From Clostridiales bacterium (lineage in GTDB: Bacteria > Bacillota > Clostridia > Saccharofermentanales > Saccharofermentanaceae): a stretch of DNA of 64,000 nt. Position numbers and translations under genes: made by a program. Below are positions 46,334 to 55,657 of the stretch, piece after piece. Within the stretch, counting starts at the first letter, position 1. Each line of letters opens with the position of its first letter. The notes under the pieces were generated by a model. That model was not told the DNA's origin. It ran no database searches and saw only the letters and a list, made by a program, of their open reading frames with translations. Location: NCBI GenBank assembly GCA_017940895.1, contig JAGAXM010000022.1, positions 1 through 64,000 on the forward strand, read 5' to 3'.

Positions 46334-47449
46334 TCAGATTATCTCTATTCTGAATTCTTTGTTGCCGCATATCAGTTTCTGATCGCTTTTGATCTCATAT
46401 TCGCGTCCGGGAAGCAGTCTTACATTGTTAAGGTAAGTGGAATTGTCCGAGGACAGGTCGCTTATATAATATGCTCTGTCATATTTTCTGATCTGAGCAT
46501 GTATCGGCGATATGCTCTTGTCGGGATAAAACAGATCACACAAAAACCGGTCTGATCCGATGGCTGCTTTGTCTGTATAGACAGCTTTTTTGTCTTCTGC
46601 GCCTGTATCGGAGTCGATGTCCGTAAGAATAAGAGCATCGAGACTCCCGGCTTTGGTGCCTTCATCACCGAACAGCATTTGTATCTTAGTGTCGTCAGAA
46701 GAAACGGGAAGTGTGATATTCGGTTTGTTGAACAATTCCTTTCTTATCCTGACTGCAAAGGTTATCTGTAAGATAACGAATATCAAGGCTGCTGTCGGCA
46801 TGTTGAGCAAAGTAAAAATCATGGACAGGAGACTTCCCAATATGATAAATCTGAACTCGTTAAGTCCCAGAAGTTCCGATCTTTTGGATGTTTGAATAAC
46901 AGGCTCTTTAACTTTCCCGGCTTCTTTTTTGAACAGTTCAGGATCATTCTGCTTCGCAGCATACAGCAGTCCGTCGATCTCGTCATTGCTTATTATTCCG
47001 GCAAAGCAATCCGAGGTCAGTAAACCTTTCAGACCTGCTTTGGTTACCGATCCTATACAAAGGTCATGCGGGTCGATTCGGCACGGATTGAAGCATACTT
47101 TTATTTCACTTAAGTCATCGTTTATGAACATGAACTCCGGGTCAAGACACAGTGAAGAAGGTGCCAGTAAGAGATCCGGAAGATCAACGATGGAGAGGAG
47201 AAGGTCCCCGAGCGCATTACGAATACTGTTTACTCCGGACGGATTATCTGGATTTTGCGGAATAAGATTAGACAATCCGGAGCAATCGTATGATGCTTCG
47301 TAAGTGCTTACGGTCGGAATTAAATAAAGCGGAAGCATATGACCCGGAATGTTTTCTGCAATTATCTCACGGGTATAGCTGTGTACAGAGTCTATGTCTT
47401 CTATTTTATTAATTACAAATTGTCCGTAGGGACCTTTCCTTATCTCCAT
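46334..47449 (-). CDS. FHA-domain membrane protein of the Tad locus (DUF6382-like N-terminus)
   Basis: This 371-residue protein has an N-terminal domain (1-190) like that found on clostridial FHA proteins, two hydrophobic segments at about 203-235 (FIILGSLLSMIFTLLN, AALIFVILQITFAV) and a C-terminal FHA domain with IGSDRFLCDL, ISPIHAQIRK and SDLSSDNSTYLNNVRL. FHA domains bind phosphothreonine. It is the last gene of the tad run and may sense or anchor the pilus machine. Confidence 0.75.
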   Translation of the reverse strand: MEIRKGPYGQFVINKIEDIDSVHSYTREIIAENIPGHMLPLYLIPTVSTYEASYDCSGLSNLIPQNPDNPSGVNSIRNALGDLLLSIVDLPDLLLAPSSLCLDPEFMFINDDLSEIKVCFNPCRIDPHDLCIGSVTKAGLKGLLTSDCFAGIISNDEIDGLLYAAKQNDPELFKKEAGKVKEPVIQTSKRSELLGLNEFRFIILGSLLSMIFTLLNMPTAALIFVILQITFAVRIRKELFNKPNITLPVSSDDTKIQMLFGDEGTKAGSLDALILTDIDSDTGAEDKKAVYTDKAAIGSDRFLCDLFYPDKSISPIHAQIRKYDRAYYISDLSSDNSTYLNNVRLLPGREYEIKSDQKLICGNKEFRIEII

Positions 47450-47476: not shown

Positions 47477-47650
47477 TCAGCCGAACGCGCCGGTAATTCT
47501 GCCTTCATCGAAGACATATTGCATTACGTTGCTTGCATATCTTGTAAGTCCTTCGCGGAAGATCAGCGCAAGTGCCACGAGCACTGCGATGATAATGACG
47601 ATCTCAACGGTTCCCATACCGCGTTTGTTTCTGACATTTGTATTTGCCAT
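47477..47650 (-). CDS. Flp-type (type IVb) pilin
   Basis: This 57-residue prepilin has a short basic leader ending in NKRG, then MGTVEIVIIIAVLVALALIF. A prepilin peptidase would cut after RG to leave Glu at position 5, as in Flp pilins. AAGGAGG lies upstream of the ATG at 47650. The gene sits 22 bases after tadBC, as expected for the pilin of this Tad system. No prepilin peptidase gene is in the window. Confidence 0.88.
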   Translation of the reverse strand: MANTNVRNKRGMGTVEIVIIIAVLVALALIFREGLTRYASNVMQYVFDEGRITGAFG

Positions 47651-47672
47651 GTAGTATCCTCCTTTGTTTGAT

Positions 47673-49220
47673 CTATATACCAAGTGAGATTATTGCCGGT
47701 GTTGTTGCTACAAGAAGTACGGAGACGAAGTCGAGTGTCATAGGAAGTAAAAGACCCAATGACTCGCGTTCCTGTTTCTTGCGTGCCGCGTTACGGCACA
47801 GATTCCAACAGGCCGATGCCTGCAGTGAAAGAAGCCCCAATACTTCATTTGTTCCTAATCTGCCGTATCTTGCTACGAGCAGTAGCGCTGACTGGGCTTC
47901 GGGGATCTGTATTCGTAAAGAGAGTTTCTCGATTGAATCAGATGCGGTCATTCCGCTTAACATCATCGCCCTAAGATTACGTATCTCCGAAGACAGCCCG
48001 TTGCTGCTTTTAAATGCATATGAACATATCGCTATGGACTTTGGAAGCTGCAGTCCTGCTTCAAGAAGAGTGTGTATAAGACACAGAAAAAGCGGTATAT
48101 CGCTCATAAGATCTTCTCTTCGGATCTGTGCATCTTTTTTGATATCATAAGCTCCGAGTACTGCAACCGCGATGGTCAGCAACGGACTGAAGATGATCTT
48201 TATATCAGCGACGAGAAGAACAGCAGCAGATATGATAAGGACTATCAAACAGATCGTTACCTGTCTGCGTAAATACTTCTCATATGCATATCGCGGATTA
48301 ATCGATATCTCGTTGAACAGTTCGTGCCTTGAGGCTATGAAGCCTGTCGGCATTATCTTCTGAAGAAGATCCGTTAGAGGTGTTTTCTTAGATGACGATG
48401 GTTCGTAAGAAGTATCGTCAAAACTTTTTCTTGCTTTCTGTGAATGTGTCATGAATCTGAAAAGCAGTGAAGAGGCAATGATCGCTGTTGCAAATGCTCC
48501 GATAAGAATGAATGAGCCGAGGCGTGAAGCACGTGCTGTCTCGAGGTATCCTCCGCCCATCTTATCAAGCGCTGCTGTGATCATAAAAGGCATGATGCAC
48601 AGCATGGCGGCTTCGGCATTCTTGCCTGCGTTGTTCGCATTTATCTCATTCTGGACGGCATTCATCTCGGATAACATCTGACAGCTGCTTCGAAGTATAG
48701 CAAGTGAGTTGTTGCCTATGTCGGAAGAGATCGCCAGTGCGTGAAAGATGGGTATGGTCTCGGGGAAATTGATCTCGTTCGAGAAGATCTCCAGAGCCTT
48801 ATCGAGACTCATATGAACTTTGATGTTGTTCTCGAGCGTTATAAGAGGTTTTATCAGTACACTCTTGCTTCCGAATGAATGCTCTATTACGGGTCTTATG
48901 AGCGTGAGGGATTTCTCTATTGAATAACCACTGCTGACACTTGTTGTCAGTACCTGAAGCAGTATCAGAAGCTGGGTTCTCATATGCTTATAGTTGCCCG
49001 AGTATAATTTCTTCATCAATTCTTTCCACGGGAAGAATCCGAGGATGATACTGCCTATTATCCTTGGAAGCTGGGCATCAATGAAGAAAGAAGATATCGA
49101 ATAAATCGCAACAACGAAGAAAGGATATACCCACCAATGTCTGAGCAGATATGATAATGACGCGTCAGCCTTTATATGAACATGTGTCATTAAGTTCTTC
49201 AGTCGAACAGGCTCTTTCAC
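47673..49220 (-). CDS. TadB-TadC fusion, pilus inner-membrane platform
   Basis: This 515-residue protein carries two type II secretion F (T2SSF) modules. The first, TadB-like, covers about 80-265 (SSGYSIEKSLTLIRP, then the hydrophobic FMITAALD and LGSFILIGAFATAI). The second, TadC-like, covers about 335-515 (LHTLLEAGLQLPKSIAI, RYGRLGTNEVLGLLSLQA, ending in FVSVLLVATTPAII). TadB and TadC are normally separate. The start GTG at 49220 is set by AAGGAGG 8 nt upstream and overlaps the tadA 3' end by 56 bases. Confidence 0.8.
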   Translation of the reverse strand: MKEPVRLKNLMTHVHIKADASLSYLLRHWWVYPFFVVAIYSISSFFIDAQLPRIIGSIILGFFPWKELMKKLYSGNYKHMRTQLLILLQVLTTSVSSGYSIEKSLTLIRPVIEHSFGSKSVLIKPLITLENNIKVHMSLDKALEIFSNEINFPETIPIFHALAISSDIGNNSLAILRSSCQMLSEMNAVQNEINANNAGKNAEAAMLCIMPFMITAALDKMGGGYLETARASRLGSFILIGAFATAIIASSLLFRFMTHSQKARKSFDDTSYEPSSSKKTPLTDLLQKIMPTGFIASRHELFNEISINPRYAYEKYLRRQVTICLIVLIISAAVLLVADIKIIFSPLLTIAVAVLGAYDIKKDAQIRREDLMSDIPLFLCLIHTLLEAGLQLPKSIAICSYAFKSSNGLSSEIRNLRAMMLSGMTASDSIEKLSLRIQIPEAQSALLLVARYGRLGTNEVLGLLSLQASACWNLCRNAARKKQERESLGLLLPMTLDFVSVLLVATTPAIISLGI

Positions 49221-50367
49221 AGCAGTTTCCTCCTTCGTTTATGAATAGTTTCTTAAGGTTAAAATCCTTGCCTTTGGCGGGAAGAACAGAACAAATCTCA
49301 TCGACATATCTCTTTCCGCTTCGATCACGTGTGATGTGTATCATGATGTCTATTCCCATAGACAACTGAGTCATAATTGCATCATAGGGAAGAGCGGATC
49401 CTGCCATTACCATACCGGTCAGTCTCTCGAGCATCTCAAGACATGAATTTGCATGTCCTGTGCTGAGACTTCCTCTGTGACCGGTATTAAGTGCGTGCAT
49501 CATATCGGCACTTTCCGAGCCTCTTACTTCGCCTACGATGATCCTGTCAGGTCTCATTCTAAGAGCGGCTCTTATCATCATTCCGATATTAACTTCACCG
49601 CTGCCGTCAGGACCGGGGAGACGCGCTTCCATCCTGACGAGATTATCGATGCCCTGAAGATTGAGCTCAGCCGAATCCTCGATGGTTACGACTCGTTCAT
49701 CCGGAGGAATGAATCCCGATAACGTGTTGAGAAAAGTTGTCTTGCCGCTTCCGGTGCCGCCGCACAAGAATATGGTCTTCTTGTTTCTTACACATTCGCA
49801 TAGAAATCTGGCTGCTTCTTCGCTTATAAAGCCCTGACGTATAAGGGTTACTATGTCATGGGAGATTCCCGTAAACTTTCTTATGGTAACTATCGGTCCG
49901 TCGGGTGCGACAGGCGGCAGAACACAGTTGGCTCGTGATCCGTCCGGCAGTCTTAAGTCCGATATCGGATTGGCTTCATTGAGCGGTCTGTTCCTGTTGG
50001 CAAAGAAGCATGAGATTACGGTCTTGAGTGAATCGGCATCTTTGAACCGTATGTCTGTCTTATACAGCTTGCCTCCGCGTTCATAGAAGACCTTATCCGG
50101 ACCGTTGACCATGATCTCGGTTACGGTCGGATCTTCCATCAAAGGTTCGATGACATCAAGTCTTCGAAGACTGTTAAAGACACTTTGAGCCAACGATCTT
50201 TTCTGTTCAAGCGGCAGTTGTGCCGAGTTCTCATCGATACCGATCACTTCGGATATTATCTCTTTAAGACGTTCGTCTGACGGATCGGATTCCGTCCGGA
50301 GAAAACTCAAAACGTAATAGATCAGTTTTTCTTTGATCTGTGCTGTATCACATGTTGATTGATTCAT
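49165..50367 (-). CDS. tadA: TadA/CpaF secretion ATPase
   Basis: This 400-residue hexameric ATPase powers Flp pilus assembly. It has NGPDKVFYERGG, Walker A CGGTGSGKTTFLN, an Asp box near VVTIEDSAEL, Walker B RMRPDRIIVGEVRG, and a His box in GHRGSLSTGHANS. The ATG at 50367 overlaps the upstream gene by 20 bases. Confidence 0.93.
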   Translation of the reverse strand: MNQSTCDTAQIKEKLIYYVLSFLRTESDPSDERLKEIISEVIGIDENSAQLPLEQKRSLAQSVFNSLRRLDVIEPLMEDPTVTEIMVNGPDKVFYERGGKLYKTDIRFKDADSLKTVISCFFANRNRPLNEANPISDLRLPDGSRANCVLPPVAPDGPIVTIRKFTGISHDIVTLIRQGFISEEAARFLCECVRNKKTIFLCGGTGSGKTTFLNTLSGFIPPDERVVTIEDSAELNLQGIDNLVRMEARLPGPDGSGEVNIGMMIRAALRMRPDRIIVGEVRGSESADMMHALNTGHRGSLSTGHANSCLEMLERLTGMVMAGSALPYDAIMTQLSMGIDIMIHITRDRSGKRYVDEICSVLPAKGKDFNLKKLFINEGGNCCERACSTEELNDTCSYKG

Positions 50368-51256
50368 ACTTCTGTCTGTAATCCTCGCAATAATGCACCG
50401 TCATAAGAGAACCTGACGGTAAAGTTCTTTTGAATAAGTCCAACTCTTTGGTCATCCCGGTGTCTTCCGTGCACATTCTGGCGGGAAGAAGGATATGGAG
50501 TGTGTCGCAATGCTTTATTAATCTGATCAGATCTGCCATGCGCCAGCCCTCGGCTACTACAAGGGCGCCGGTTTGTTCCTGATTGCAAAGCTGCGATAAC
50601 AACTCCATTAATCTGTCACAGGAATCTATACCGATATCGAATACATCGTCTTCGTTTTCCGGTTTACCGCAGGAAAGGAATCCGTTGCTGTCCGGATTAA
50701 GATAATCAAGGATCAGGGCAGGGGCGAACCTTTTGCCTGTACAGGAGCGCAGAAGCCCGGTTAACGATCCTGTCTTCTCGTAAGTGAATGAGGCGGGCAT
50801 TCTTATCCCTGACATGAGATCGATCCGTATCGGATGAATACAATCGAAACTGTCAGGCCCGATAACGTTCTTTATAAACAACTCACGTTCATCAATATAT
50901 GCATATGAGATGAGTAATCTTAATCTGTCCTGGGTACTATCCTGTGTAATATAGGAATCATTATCTGATGACAGGCTTCCGGATATAGCTTTACCTATAA
51001 CACGCATGTCAATGATGCTGTGTTCCTTAAGTTCGCTGAATAAAGGGATAGGTACGGTTCCGTTAAGATCTTCCGGCGCCTTATACTGACGGTTGTCATA
51101 CAGAATAAAGATCTTCTTGATGAGCTTGAGATTCTCCTGTGAACTGTTGTGTCCTGAGCGTTCTATATATGCAGAAGGAAACAGATAAGTAAGTCGTTCA
51201 CGTATAAGAGAATATAGGTAATCATCGTTCTCGTAGACTAAGATTCCGAATGTCAT
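50348..51256 (-). CDS. First gene of the Tad operon, possible TadZ/CpaE-like protein
   Basis: This 302-residue protein is not recognised with certainty. The N-terminus (MTFGILVYENDDYLYSLIRERL) looks like a receiver-type fold without a clear phospho-acceptor. The C-terminal part has MinD-like spacing (ALVVAEGWRMADLIRLIKHC) but no Walker A. Its position before tadA is where TadZ/CpaE localisation proteins lie. ATG 51256 follows a purine-rich AAGGA site. An in-frame longer start would run into the repeated sites at 51311-51350 and is rejected. Confidence 0.5.
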   Translation of the reverse strand: MTFGILVYENDDYLYSLIRERLTYLFPSAYIERSGHNSSQENLKLIKKIFILYDNRQYKAPEDLNGTVPIPLFSELKEHSIIDMRVIGKAISGSLSSDNDSYITQDSTQDRLRLLISYAYIDERELFIKNVIGPDSFDCIHPIRIDLMSGIRMPASFTYEKTGSLTGLLRSCTGKRFAPALILDYLNPDSNGFLSCGKPENEDDVFDIGIDSCDRLMELLSQLCNQEQTGALVVAEGWRMADLIRLIKHCDTLHILLPARMCTEDTGMTKELDLFKRTLPSGSLMTVHYCEDYRQKYESINM

Positions 51257-51310
51257 TTCCTTGTTCCTTTCGAAAAGTTTCCTTAATCGTACAAGAGAAT
51301 GACCCGTTAT

Positions 51311-51350
51311 TTTTCGACAATTCTCGACAATTTTCGACAAAAAACGACAA
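51311..51350 (-). promoter_or_regulatory. Four tandem Spo0A-box-like 10-mers
   Basis: Read on the minus strand the four units are TTGTCGTTTT, TTGTCGAAAA, TTGTCGAGAA and TTGTCGAAAA, exactly 10 bases apart. Two contain a perfect 0A box (TGTCGAA) and two are single- or double-mismatch versions. They end 54 bases before the first tad gene and 9 bases upstream of the metK -35 box. Spo0A is known to bind tandem boxes at 10-bp spacing. Confidence 0.65.
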
Positions 51351-51358
51351 AGGTTTTG

Positions 51359-51387
51359 TTGAGCCGTGATGTCAGTGATGTTATAAT
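51359..51387 (+). promoter_or_regulatory. Promoter of metK
   Basis: TTGAGC (51359-51364) and TATAAT (51382-51387) are 17 bases apart, ending 39 bases before the ATG. No SAM riboswitch fits in the short leader. Confidence 0.8.
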
Positions 51388-51426
51388 GACAAATCAGACT
51401 ATAAATCTGTTGAAGGCGGTATATAT

Positions 51427-52617
51427 ATGAGAAAAAATGAAGGAAAATGGCTGTTTACATCCGAGTCTGTTACCGAGGGACATCCCGATAAGGTTTGTGA
51501 TCAGATCTCTGATGCAGTACTTGATGCCATAATAGAGAATGATCCCGGTGCCAGAGTAGCTTGTGAGACATTTGCTGCTACAGGTATGATCGTAGTTGCA
51601 GGTGAGATCACAACATCTTCTTATGTTGATATTCCCAGTGTCGCAAGAGAGACATTGAAGGAGATCGGATATAACGGCAGCGATGTAAGCTTTGACTACA
51701 AGACATGCGCCGTAATGACTTCCATCGATGAGCAGTCTCCCGATATTGCTCAGGGCGTTAACGATGCCCTAGAGACAAGAGGAGAGGGACAGCTCGATAT
51801 CGGTGCAGGTGACCAGGGTATGATGTTCGGTTATGCGAATGACGATACGCCTGAGTTCATGCCTCTTCCTATATCTCTTGCTCATAAGCTTACATTGAAG
51901 CTTGCAGAAGTAAGAAAGAATGATCCGACAAGCTTCTTAAGCCCTGACGGTAAGTCACAGGTTACGGTTGAATATGACGGTCCTACACCCAAGAGGATCG
52001 ATACGGTAGTTATCTCAACTCAGCACAGAGAGTCAGCTACTGAAGAGCAGGTTAAGGAACTTGTAACCGAGAAGGTTATCAAGGCTGTAATTCCTGCCGA
52101 TCTTATGGATGAGAACACCAAGATCTTTATCAATCCTACAGGCAGATTCGTACTTGGCGGTCCTGCAGGAGATACAGGTCTTACGGGAAGAAAGATCATC
52201 GTTGATACATACGGCGGATTCGGTCGTCACGGCGGCGGATGCTTCTCGGGCAAGGATCCGACGAAGGTTGACAGAAGTGCTGCTTATGCTGCACGTCACA
52301 TTGCCAAGAATGTTGTAGCAGCAGGTCTTGCGAAGGAGTGCGAAGTTCAGATCGCATATGCGATCGGTGTTGCACGCCCCGTATCCGTAATGATCGATAC
52401 CTTCGGAACAGGAACAATCTCTGATACCAAGATCTCCGAGATCGTAAACAAAGTATGTGACCTTCGTCCTGCAGCAATCATCAGAGATCTCGACCTGCGC
52501 CGTCCTATCTATAAGAAGACAGCAGCTTACGGTCACTTCGGAAGAGAAGATGCGGGATTTCCTTGGGAGAAGCTAGATCTTGTCGATGCCTTTAAGGAGG
52601 AAGCGGCTAAGCTTTGA
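51427..52617 (+). CDS. metK: S-adenosylmethionine synthase
   Basis: MetK makes SAM from methionine and ATP. The 396-residue protein has [20 protein letters not shown] near the N-terminus, [25 protein letters not shown] and [19 protein letters not shown]. It is the first gene of the metK-recD2-comF run. Confidence 0.97.
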
Positions 52618-52620
52618 TCA

Positions 52621-54939
52621 ATGAGCGCATCTGAATCCGGAATACTGAAGAAACTCAGTACAGATGATATCGGTAAAGAACTTGACGGCGTTATTGTAAC
52701 GGCCGTCAAGTCTGTTTTTGACAGGAATGGTTTTGTTATCTTTGCCTGCAAGGGCGGATTTACTGTGAAGGGTAATTGCCCTGAAGGACTGATCGAAGGG
52801 ATGAATTACAAGGTCAGCGGCAAGGTCACTTCATATAACAGCAAGCCCCAGATAACAGCGGGCAGCATCGAGTTGATTGAGACTGATGAGAATGATGAAG
52901 TTCTTATCGCGGGATTTCTTAAAGATAACTTCGATGCGGTAGGAGAGAAGCTTGCTCAACGTCTTGCCACGGCTTACGGCAATGAAGTCCTTCAAGCTCT
53001 GCTTAATGACCCTGAGGCCGCTTCTTCCGCCATAACCGGTCTGAGTGTCGAGCTCGCAGCGGATATAGCGCGTAAATATGAAGAAGACACGGTGTTCTAT
53101 GAGACTGTTCTTGAACTTCGTAAGCTTGGCCTTTCAAATAAGAAGGCTGTTAAAGTCTATGATCAGTACGGATCTTCATGCATCGATGTGATAAAGGATA
53201 ATCCGTACATTCTCATGCGTATATCAGGCATAGGATTCGAGACCTGTGAAACGATCGCGAAGAGGCTTAATGCGGAACCTGTGAGCATATCAAGATTCGA
53301 AGGCGCGATAGTAAGTGCCGTCAATGATCTCCATGAGCAGACTAAGGATACATGGTTTGATCCCGACACCGTAAGGAAACACGCGACATCTGTTCTTATG
53401 CGTAAGAGTGAGGTCACGATCCCGCAGGATGTTTTCGACGGGTTGTACCACGATGCCGTGGTAAGAGCCAAAGAAGATAAGTTTATCGTCGTATACAGAT
53501 TTACGGGAGATAAATGCGCAGGATGCGAAGAGACGGATGAAGGCGCGCGTATATCTTCCATGTCCGTGTTCGGAACGGAACATGCGATCAAGAAACAGAT
53601 CGAGGAATTTCTGAAGGCGAAGACACATATACCTGACAAAGACAAGGCAGTGACGAAGATCATCAGTATGGGAAAACAGCGCGATCTTGAGCTCGAACAG
53701 AATCAGATCGAGGCTATATTTATGTGCATGTATTCTCCCATTTCGATCATAACGGGAGGACCCGGCACGGGAAAGACAACCATCACTTCGATACTTGCAC
53801 AGCACTTCCGCGATGCGGGGATAGAGTGCGAATTCTGTGCGCCTACGGGAAGAGCTGCGAAAAGGCTTTCGGAGGCAACCGGAGAGAAGGCCTGCACCAT
53901 ACACCGTCTTCTCGAAATGAGCGCGCCTTCGGATGACGAGGATGAAAGGTCAGACCTGTTCTTCGGAAGGAATAAGAAGAACCCGCTCGAGTGCAGGGTG
54001 GTGGTAGCCGATGAGGCTTCGATGATAGACATCTTTCTTTTCAAGGCTCTTCTTGATGCACTGCGTCCGGGTGCATCTTTAATCCTTGTCGGAGATCCCG
54101 AACAGCTGCCTTCAGTAAGTGAAGGCAATGTGCTCGAAGACCTTCTGTCGTGCGCTTCCATACCCAGGGTAAAACTGCAGTATGTATTCAGACAGGGTGT
54201 CGACAGCTCGATCGCTGCAAACGCCGCCCGTATTCTTAACGGTGAATATCCTGTGGAGGGAGACGACTTCGAGATAATAAAGACCGCTTCGGATGAAGAA
54301 GCAGTTCCATTTATTACGAGACTGTCTGCTGATAACAGGGACAGTGATCACGCGATACTGTGTCCCACCAGACAGAAGATCCTCGGCACCGAGAATCTCA
54401 ATGTGATCCTGCAGGAAGCAAATAACGAAGGTGAAGAAGAACCTGCGGTTATAAGACCGACGCTTAAGCTCTATCGCGGAGACAGTGTGATGCAGGTAAA
54501 GAATAACTATTCGATCGAATACTACGATCCTGCTTCGAGCGAAGTTCAAAGAGGAATCTATAACGGCGAGATGGGCAGATTCCAAGGCTTTGATGTGCTT
54601 ACGGGTAAGTACGATATTCTCTTTGACGGGGACCGCAAGATAGGATTCGACAAGAAGAATATGTCCGATATCGAATTGTCCTATGCGATAACGGTCCACA
54701 AAGCCCAGGGGTGTGAATTCGACCGTGTTACCATTGTGCTGGGATTTATGAATTCGCAGTTGTCGAGCAGGAAGCTTCTTTATACCGCCGTTACGAGAGG
54801 AAAGAACAAAGTGACGATAATCGATTCGGGGGAACGTCTGTCGAAGATGCTTAAGTCGAATGTTAAGTCGTACCGTAATACATCCCTTAAAGATTTTCTT
54901 GCCATAGTACAGACGAGATACAAGGATGGGAATACTTAA
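52621..54939 (+). CDS. recD2: RecD2-type ATP-dependent DNA helicase
   Basis: This 772-residue SF1B helicase has an OB-like N-terminus, HhH-containing middle (RISGIGFETCETIAKRL), Walker A ITGGPGTGKTTITS, Walker B VVADEASMID, GDPEQLPSV and the C-terminal motif VHKAQGCEFDRV with TAVTRGK. It acts on stalled forks or in repair without RecBC. It starts 3 bases after metK. Confidence 0.93.
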   Translation: MSASESGILKKLSTDDIGKELDGVIVTAVKSVFDRNGFVIFACKGGFTVKGNCPEGLIEGMNYKVSGKVTSYNSKPQITAGSIELIETDENDEVLIAGFLKDNFDAVGEKLAQRLATAYGNEVLQALLNDPEAASSAITGLSVELAADIARKYEEDTVFYETVLELRKLGLSNKKAVKVYDQYGSSCIDVIKDNPYILMRISGIGFETCETIAKRLNAEPVSISRFEGAIVSAVNDLHEQTKDTWFDPDTVRKHATSVLMRKSEVTIPQDVFDGLYHDAVVRAKEDKFIVVYRFTGDKCAGCEETDEGARISSMSVFGTEHAIKKQIEEFLKAKTHIPDKDKAVTKIISMGKQRDLELEQNQIEAIFMCMYSPISIITGGPGTGKTTITSILAQHFRDAGIECEFCAPTGRAAKRLSEATGEKACTIHRLLEMSAPSDDEDERSDLFFGRNKKNPLECRVVVADEASMIDIFLFKALLDALRPGASLILVGDPEQLPSVSEGNVLEDLLSCASIPRVKLQYVFRQGVDSSIAANAARILNGEYPVEGDDFEIIKTASDEEAVPFITRLSADNRDSDHAILCPTRQKILGTENLNVILQEANNEGEEEPAVIRPTLKLYRGDSVMQVKNNYSIEYYDPASSEVQRGIYNGEMGRFQGFDVLTGKYDILFDGDRKIGFDKKNMSDIELSYAITVHKAQGCEFDRVTIVLGFMNSQLSSRKLLYTAVTRGKNKVTIIDSGERLSKMLKSNVKSYRNTSLKDFLAIVQTRYKDGNT

Positions 54940-55657
54940 GAAGGCTGTTGATCTGATGCTTCCGCGTAACTGCTGTGTATGCGGACGATTTCCCGATGCC
55001 GACGGCAGGATTCCTTATGATGTGCCTGATGACTTTCACATCTGCTTTGACTGTTTATCCGGACTGATCCCGCAGCCGCCCGACAGGCGTTTCTTTTTGT
55101 GTCTGTCAGAGCCGTATGACGGTGATCCGCATCCGGATCTTCCTTTGTATATGCCGTTCCCGTATAAGGGATTCTTTGAGAAAGCCGTGCCTTCCATGAA
55201 GTTTCATTCTCATCCGGAACTTGCGCAGTTTGCAGGGAGGCTTCTCGGAGGTCTTATGAAGAAGGACAATATCGGTGCGGATCTGATCGTGCCTGTTCCT
55301 CTGGCTCCGTCGAGACTTAAGGAACGCGGGTATAACCAGGCGGGACTGATCGCTTCGGAGGCTTCGAAGATATGCGGTATTCCGTATGCCGGCGACGTTC
55401 TTGTCAGGGTGAGGGAAACGGAAAGGCAGACAGAGATAGTAGACAATGCCTTAAGGAGCATGAATGTACACGGAGCCTTCAAGGTTGATCCGTCATTTGA
55501 TGTTGAAGGAATTGAAGTATTGGTACTGGATGATGTCGCTACGACCGGCAATACGCTTCATGAGGCTGCATGCGCGCTGTATGAGGCCGGAGCCTCGAAA
55601 GTATTATGCTGTGCCGTGTGCGGCAACAGGGCCGTTCTTAACGCCGAGTCGTTATAA
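54926..55657 (+). CDS. comF: ComF-family phosphoribosyltransferase-like protein
   Basis: This 243-residue protein has an N-terminal zinc-binding Cys set (CCVCGR, then CFDC) and a phosphoribosyltransferase fold with VPVPLAPSRLKERGYNQA and the PRPP-like loop VLVLDDVATTGNTL. ComF proteins take part in DNA uptake or processing, and the neighbour recD2 fits a DNA role. The ATG overlaps the recD2 stop by 14 bases. Confidence 0.87.
   Translation: MGILKKAVDLMLPRNCCVCGRFPDADGRIPYDVPDDFHICFDCLSGLIPQPPDRRFFLCLSEPYDGDPHPDLPLYMPFPYKGFFEKAVPSMKFHSHPELAQFAGRLLGGLMKKDNIGADLIVPVPLAPSRLKERGYNQAGLIASEASKICGIPYAGDVLVRVRETERQTEIVDNALRSMNVHGAFKVDPSFDVEGIEVLVLDDVATTGNTLHEAACALYEAGASKVLCCAVCGNRAVLNAESL

Follow-up and report, generated by a model that had tools for sequence, protein, structure and literature searches.

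The window, that is, the whole stretch of 64,000 nucleotides that was analysed, carries a tad pilus operon on the minus strand and metK in divergent orientation on the plus strand, with an array of short tandem repeats in the gap between them. The features in order of position are:

46334–47449, minus strand: FHA/DUF6382 protein, last in the tad operon
47477–47683, minus strand: Flp1-like pilin (PF16982, E = 1.8e-13)
47673–49220, minus strand: tad-operon membrane protein, TadB/TadC-like by position and size (weak DUF4022 match alone)
49165–50367, minus strand: TadA/CpaF-type ATPase of the T2SSE family (PF00437, E = 3.5e-52)
50348–51256, minus strand: first gene of the tad operon, about 302 amino acids, no Pfam match, 52–72% identical in relatives
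51286–51291, minus strand: tad -10-like element TACGAT, 23 bp past the last box
51311–51350, minus strand: four tandem TTGTCG boxes (0A-like), found by pattern, profile match E = 1.0e-15, kept in relatives L050–L058
51311–51320, minus strand: box unit TTGTCGAAAA (second copy)
51321–51330, minus strand: box unit TTGTCGAGAA
51331–51340, minus strand: box unit TTGTCGAAAA
51341–51350, minus strand: box unit TTGTCGTTTT
51359–51387, plus strand: metK promoter, sigma-70-like (TTGAGC-17-TATAAT)
51427–52617, plus strand: metK, divergent from tad
52621–54939, plus strand: recD2 helicase, downstream of metK (TIGR01448, 530.6 bits, above cut-off; synteny in relatives)
54926–55657, plus strand: ComF/GntX-type phosphoribosyltransferase, downstream of recD2 (TIGR00201, E = 7.6e-22, below the curated cut-off)

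The position of the first tad gene suggests a TadZ/CpaE-like role.

The box array and its assignment to tad

On the minus strand the four TTGTCG units follow one another head-to-tail with an exact step of 10 bp, and the most promoter-proximal core begins at 51315 (51315–51320). The edge of the array at 51311 lies 54 bases above the start codon of the first tad gene (51256–51254). On the other side, the -35-like TTGAGC of metK (51359) lies 8 bases past the array end at 51350, and its TATAAT ends at 51387. When the window was searched for TTGTCG-N4-TTGTCG with at most one mismatch, three matches were observed, all inside the array, against 0.40 expected. Spo0A specifically contacts G2, C4 and G5 of TGTCGAA (PMC3485338), and the TTGTCG cores of the array hold all three of these bases. 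Thus, the preliminary description of four Spo0A-box-like repeats at 10 bp spacing, 54 bases from the first tad gene, was borne out in position, non-chance counts and core sequence; it had missed the -10-like TACGAT of tad and the recurrence of the array across the genome. An RNA element in the tad/metK gap was rejected, as an Rfam search of the window gave tRNAs only.

All nine relatives retrieved (L050–L058) also have the array, with three or four boxes each, in front of the first tad gene. They were found via that gene and are metagenome bins, sampled from the rumen and elsewhere; two carry the label Saccharofermentans. In one of them (L052) the array lies 135 bp from metK, about 60 bp more than the 69–77 bp of the other relatives. 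Its distance to tad is 89 bp in L052 and 89–101 bp in the others. Since the distance to tad is near constant and the distance to metK is not, we assign the array to tad, with a possible effect on metK that there is no need to assume. The same spacing data make it unlikely that the array primarily serves metK. The earlier proposal that a Spo0A-type factor controls both Flp pili and S-adenosylmethionine synthesis therefore gained support for its tad part, for which conservation in relatives had been named as a check, and was weakened for metK. In the relatives metK is followed by recD2, and a ComF-type gene comes next in the six whose contigs reach far enough.

Recurrence, promoter geometry and genes behind the boxes

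The exact TTGTCG-N4-TTGTCG pattern occurs 33 times in the organism's own genome (2.65 Mb, 99.8% complete), with a count of 0 for the reversed control. Across 35 genomes of the genus there are 368 exact tandem matches versus 21 for the reversed pattern. These control counts rule out a chance or low-complexity repeat. Four tandems with one mismatch in unrelated surroundings (L044, L045, L047, L048) were discounted as chance, as was one (L018) that has no mismatch and an odd spacer. The own genome was examined by pattern and profile searches and in selected stretches. A promoter profile built from 22 promoters gave 16 clear sites there, with E-values from 1.6e-17 to 3.8e-6 and the next match at 0.01. 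Most copies have no obvious common flanking sequence outside the promoter.

The last box lies 23 bp from a -10-like TAnnnT hexamer in all 23 promoters compared, comprising 14 from the own genome and the 9 tad promoters of relatives. The promoter exists in two versions, one ending with TTGTCG after a 10 bp step and the other with the degenerate TNGTAG after 11 bp, and the 23 bp are kept in both. The recA site of the own genome is irregular, and at many TTGTCGG-type arrays of other species the spacing between box and -10 is 24 bp or was not detected. Box promoters contain no good -35 hexamer; the last box sits at about -41 to -36 and the others are one turn apart. The TGTCG core, the 10 bp tandem arrangement and the position near -35, all features of 0A-box promoters, are present. 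The positions of the boxes and the absent -35 are what an activator touching RNA polymerase would need, and we infer activation rather than repression. Four promoters (L033, L040, L042, L187) form a subclass in which an extra inverted box, TTGTCGAAAATTGTCGTCATTTCGTAGGTGTTTTCGACAAA, overlaps the spacer; such a layout may allow both activation and repression. One of these, L187 (C27:5276–5339 of the own genome, minus strand), is a strong box promoter that has no evident gene of at least 70 amino acids directly downstream, and may drive a small ORF or RNA.

In the own genome the boxes precede comEC (TIGR00361, above cut-off), yifB/comM followed by dprA (TIGR00732, above cut-off), recA-recX, the tad operon of the window and a second tad-type pseudopilin operon, which was named by resemblance and conservation and has no Pfam match. 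Further targets are six PD-(D/E)XK-like proteins, one Rpn-type nuclease, HicAB, a Gp49/HTH pair and one small protein without an assigned family, and one site has no evident gene. Arrays in eight other genomes of the genus stand before comM, comEC, comEA, recA, tad, the pseudopilin operon and the nuclease family, in subsets that vary. The comEA genes behind boxes encode SLBB and helix-hairpin-helix (HHH) domains in G002, G007, G019 and G037, and tblastn placed comEA behind boxes also in G005, G006 and G031. Among 91 array loci fetched from 11 genomes, 65 precede one of nine protein families, a conservative assignment in that the script misses one recA site. Two further families of the order have boxes at comM (G037 and G042). 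The profile search of the own genome found no box at any comEA gene or at the gene of the candidate regulator described below.

Natural uptake and processing of DNA have dedicated genes, among them comEC, comEA and dprA. For this reason we read the genes behind the boxes as a predicted competence (DNA uptake) regulon, and the tad operon and comEC fall within it together. Tad is not the sole candidate uptake machine of the own genome: it has PilB-type pilus ATPases at C22:14516 and C19:79387 and a second tad-type ATPase at C7:33704. None of the 16 profile sites adjoins these loci, and the box-less ATPases may serve other functions.

Several of the companions belong to a family of about 260 amino acids that resembles PD-(D/E)XK nucleases and has several copies per genome, each with its own box array. 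Pfam gave no name to this family. Its members are found at these loci:

Own genome: L032:592–1377, L033:676–1518, L036, L037, L038, L040
Further loci: L122, L123, L140–L142, L146, L151, L158, L164, L166, L169, L171

The own-genome copies L032 and L038 share both promoter and gene. A structure model of the protein (pLDDT 90.9) gave weak matches, the more plausible of which were restriction-endonuclease-like, and E137, K152, D167 and E182 are invariant. The family also matches the C-terminal part of the PADLOC candidate defence family PDC-S68 (E = 6e-6 to 1.5e-23). We hypothesize that these proteins cut or process incoming DNA. Rpn-type/PDDEXK_2 nucleases stand behind box promoters in two species (L039:3553–3885, minus strand, and L145:430–1269), with matches just under the curated cut-off. 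Two toxin-antitoxin pairs, HicAB (L043:1283–1938) and a HigBA-like Gp49/HTH pair (L034:887–1529), lie behind competence-type promoters. A conserved small protein with no assigned function follows a box promoter in three species (L042:6278–6730, minus strand; L213; L226), and boxes also stand before an NAD-kinase-like gene (L225) in G042, which belongs to another family of the order.

A candidate regulator with a Spo0A-type DNA-binding domain

A search of the own genome with Pfam Spo0A_C (PF08769) gave no match. Most relatives gave weak matches, and these pointed to a gene in conserved synteny across the genus, which follows a DNA-ligase region, a 5-formyl-THF cyclo-ligase-like gene and a membrane protein of about 145 amino acids and precedes HU (names read from the sequences). 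The own-genome counterpart was found by protein search at C37:51454–51927 (E = 9.9e-24) inside a frame of 188 amino acids (near 51420–52000). It scores 16.6 bits against the Spo0A_C cut-off of 25, and the relatives tested score 22–56 bits. The sole convincing matches of the family profile were the Spo0A structures 1fc3/1lq1 (E about 3e-5). In an AlphaFold model the C-terminal domain is helical, with most pLDDT values over 90. The top seven Foldseek matches were all 1fc3/1lq1, with probabilities of 0.99–1.00 and weak E-values (0.035), and hhalign against canonical Spo0A DNA-binding domains gave 98.7% (E = 1.9e-16). In Spo0A, residues of the recognition-helix motif E-R-x-x-R contact the box. Both arginines are invariant in the 16 sequences compared, and the glutamate is kept in 15 and replaced by aspartate in one. 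On this sequence and model evidence, the C-terminal domain is a divergent Spo0A DNA-binding domain, and we infer that the protein reads the boxes.

The N-terminal 60–70 residues gave no Response_reg match at E up to 1, and profile comparison with canonical receivers gave 1.3% and no alignment. The profile comparison thus gave no link between this module and an eroded receiver. A canonical Spo0A used as control gave strong Response_reg and Spo0A_C matches and 384.7 bits with TIGR02875. The own regulator matched 0 NCBIfam families, TIGR02875 included. SpoIVA, the one spore gene tested, was found in the B. subtilis control and in none of the 59 genomes sampled from the order. We therefore discarded a canonical Spo0A. 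The preliminary description had tied the array to the sporulation switch and had named lack of spo0A as grounds for giving up its reading. The plain Pfam search indeed finds no spo0A, because the homologue has diverged; a protein with a Spo0A-type DNA-binding domain is encoded. The sporulation switch is the wrong frame, since SpoIVA is missing from all the genomes sampled.

Searches combined, the regulator is present in 33 of the 35 genus genomes. In 196 genomes from across the class, the listed matches that run the full length came from the organism's own order only; matches outside it covered the DNA-binding domain, usually in proteins of canonical length. Autoregulation is suggested by G037, from another family, where the gene of the regulator has two boxes immediately in front of it. 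No regulator match was obtained in G006, which has 18 tandem matches; the syntenic neighbour gene was also not found, which suggests an assembly gap. The regulator is present and the exact tandem box absent in four fragmentary genus genomes (G003, G010, G030, G033), and exact boxes are also few in most other families of the order, which do have the regulator. In nearly all genomes examined (L063–L076, L077) a membrane protein of 133–151 amino acids is encoded directly upstream of the regulator and could be its sensor or partner. A search of the open-access literature found no description of this regulator or regulon.

Proposed mechanism, alternatives and significance

We propose that the array at 51311–51350 would be the activator-binding part of a competence-type promoter. 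The 188-amino-acid protein encoded on C37 would bind head-to-tail along one helix face on the 0A-like tandem boxes, and from the box nearest the promoter would recruit RNA polymerase to promoters with a poor -35 and a fixed -10. It would turn on the Tad operon together with comEC, comM-dprA, recA-recX and further Tad pseudopilins, and comEA in relatives. The Tad filament would then capture DNA, ComEA/ComEC would import it, and DprA, RecA and ComM would recombine it. This asporogenous order would have lost the phospho-receiver and the spore programme and retained the DNA-binding domain of the ancestral Spo0A for DNA uptake. The proposed roles of the regulator and of Tad as an uptake pilus in a competence state are supported by two published observations: the isolated DNA-binding domain of Spo0A binds without phosphorylation (PMC3485338), and tad genes are required for transformation in Micrococcus luteus (PMC4322843). 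Overall, a receiver-less protein of the Spo0A family probably activates competence-type promoters, including that of Tad as a putative uptake pilus, through 0A-like boxes. With less assurance, we also favour the broader reading that in this order a Spo0A DNA-binding domain, its receiver replaced by another short N-terminal module, is the master activator of competence, with a regulon that joins the Tad uptake pilus to toxin-antitoxin pairs and a diversifying family of PD-(D/E)XK nucleases, acting on, or guarding against, incoming DNA.

Head-to-tail repeats of about one turn also serve other regulator families, such as OmpR- and LytTR-type response regulators. The regulon could then be real and be read by a factor of this kind, with the Spo0A-like protein controlling something else; the boxes without a detectable regulator in G006, and the genomes with a regulator and no exact boxes, would fit. 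However, the boxes share the Spo0A core, the candidate regulator keeps a recognition helix of the Spo0A type and its gene has boxes in front of it in G037, and no other candidate factor recurs among the box-controlled genes, so we consider such a factor unlikely. We judge it about equally unlikely, or marginally more so, that the boxes define, in line with the preliminary description, a surface-attachment or stationary-phase regulon, with Tad for adhesion and the recombination genes for repair. Tad pili are adhesive in many bacteria, recA and comM can serve repair, and toxin-antitoxin pairs use the same promoter, but the conserved members include the uptake and processing genes comEC and dprA, and comEA in relatives.

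Several of the arrays stand before HicAB, Gp49/HTH and Rpn genes or members of a variable nuclease family, and L032 and L038 have promoter and gene in common. This could point to repressor or operator sites spread with mobile genes, a selfish element and not a cellular regulon. Against this, the core chromosomal genes comEC, comM-dprA, recA and tad carry sites at conserved positions in many species, and obvious likeness around most copies ends at the promoter, which makes such an origin improbable. Least credible of all is control by a canonical Spo0A within an intact sporulation pathway, which box sequence and spacing would fit and which the Spo0A and SpoIVA searches contradict.

The preferred reading, a Spo0A-family activator of competence, can be set beside known systems. 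Spo0A of Bacillus and Clostridium (TIGR02875, PDB 1lq1/1fc3) has the same helical C-terminal DNA-binding domain with its E-R-x-x-R helix, and the same TGTCG core in tandem boxes 10 bp apart near -35. In contrast, the regulator described here has no detected receiver, is about 190 instead of about 270 amino acids long and leaves the canonical C-terminal tail unmatched; its host is asporogenous and its predicted targets are competence genes. Tad/Flp-dependent transformation in M. luteus (PMC4322843, PMC8467076) likewise involves a tad operon and comEA/comEC, whereas here, in a clostridial order, tad shares a dedicated promoter element with comEC, dprA and recA, and a regulator is predicted. The late-competence regulons of ComK in Bacillus and ComX/SigX in Streptococcus also place comEC, dprA, recA and pilus genes under one factor. 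They differ from the predicted regulon in factor and DNA site; here Tad would replace the ComG pilus genes, and nucleases and toxin-antitoxin pairs are carried along.

Apparently, then, judging from sequence comparison, a receiver-less protein of the Spo0A family and its 0A-like boxes have been re-used for natural competence. If true, this would advise caution in taking spo0A matches to mark metagenome bins as potential spore formers, a use made of them before (PMC11536998), and the competence-linked nuclease family would offer a new lead on the handling of incoming DNA. It would provide a Firmicute case of Tad-based DNA uptake and predict natural transformation in mostly uncultured gut bacteria, with regulator and promoter code named, and it would show what may become of Spo0A once spores are lost.
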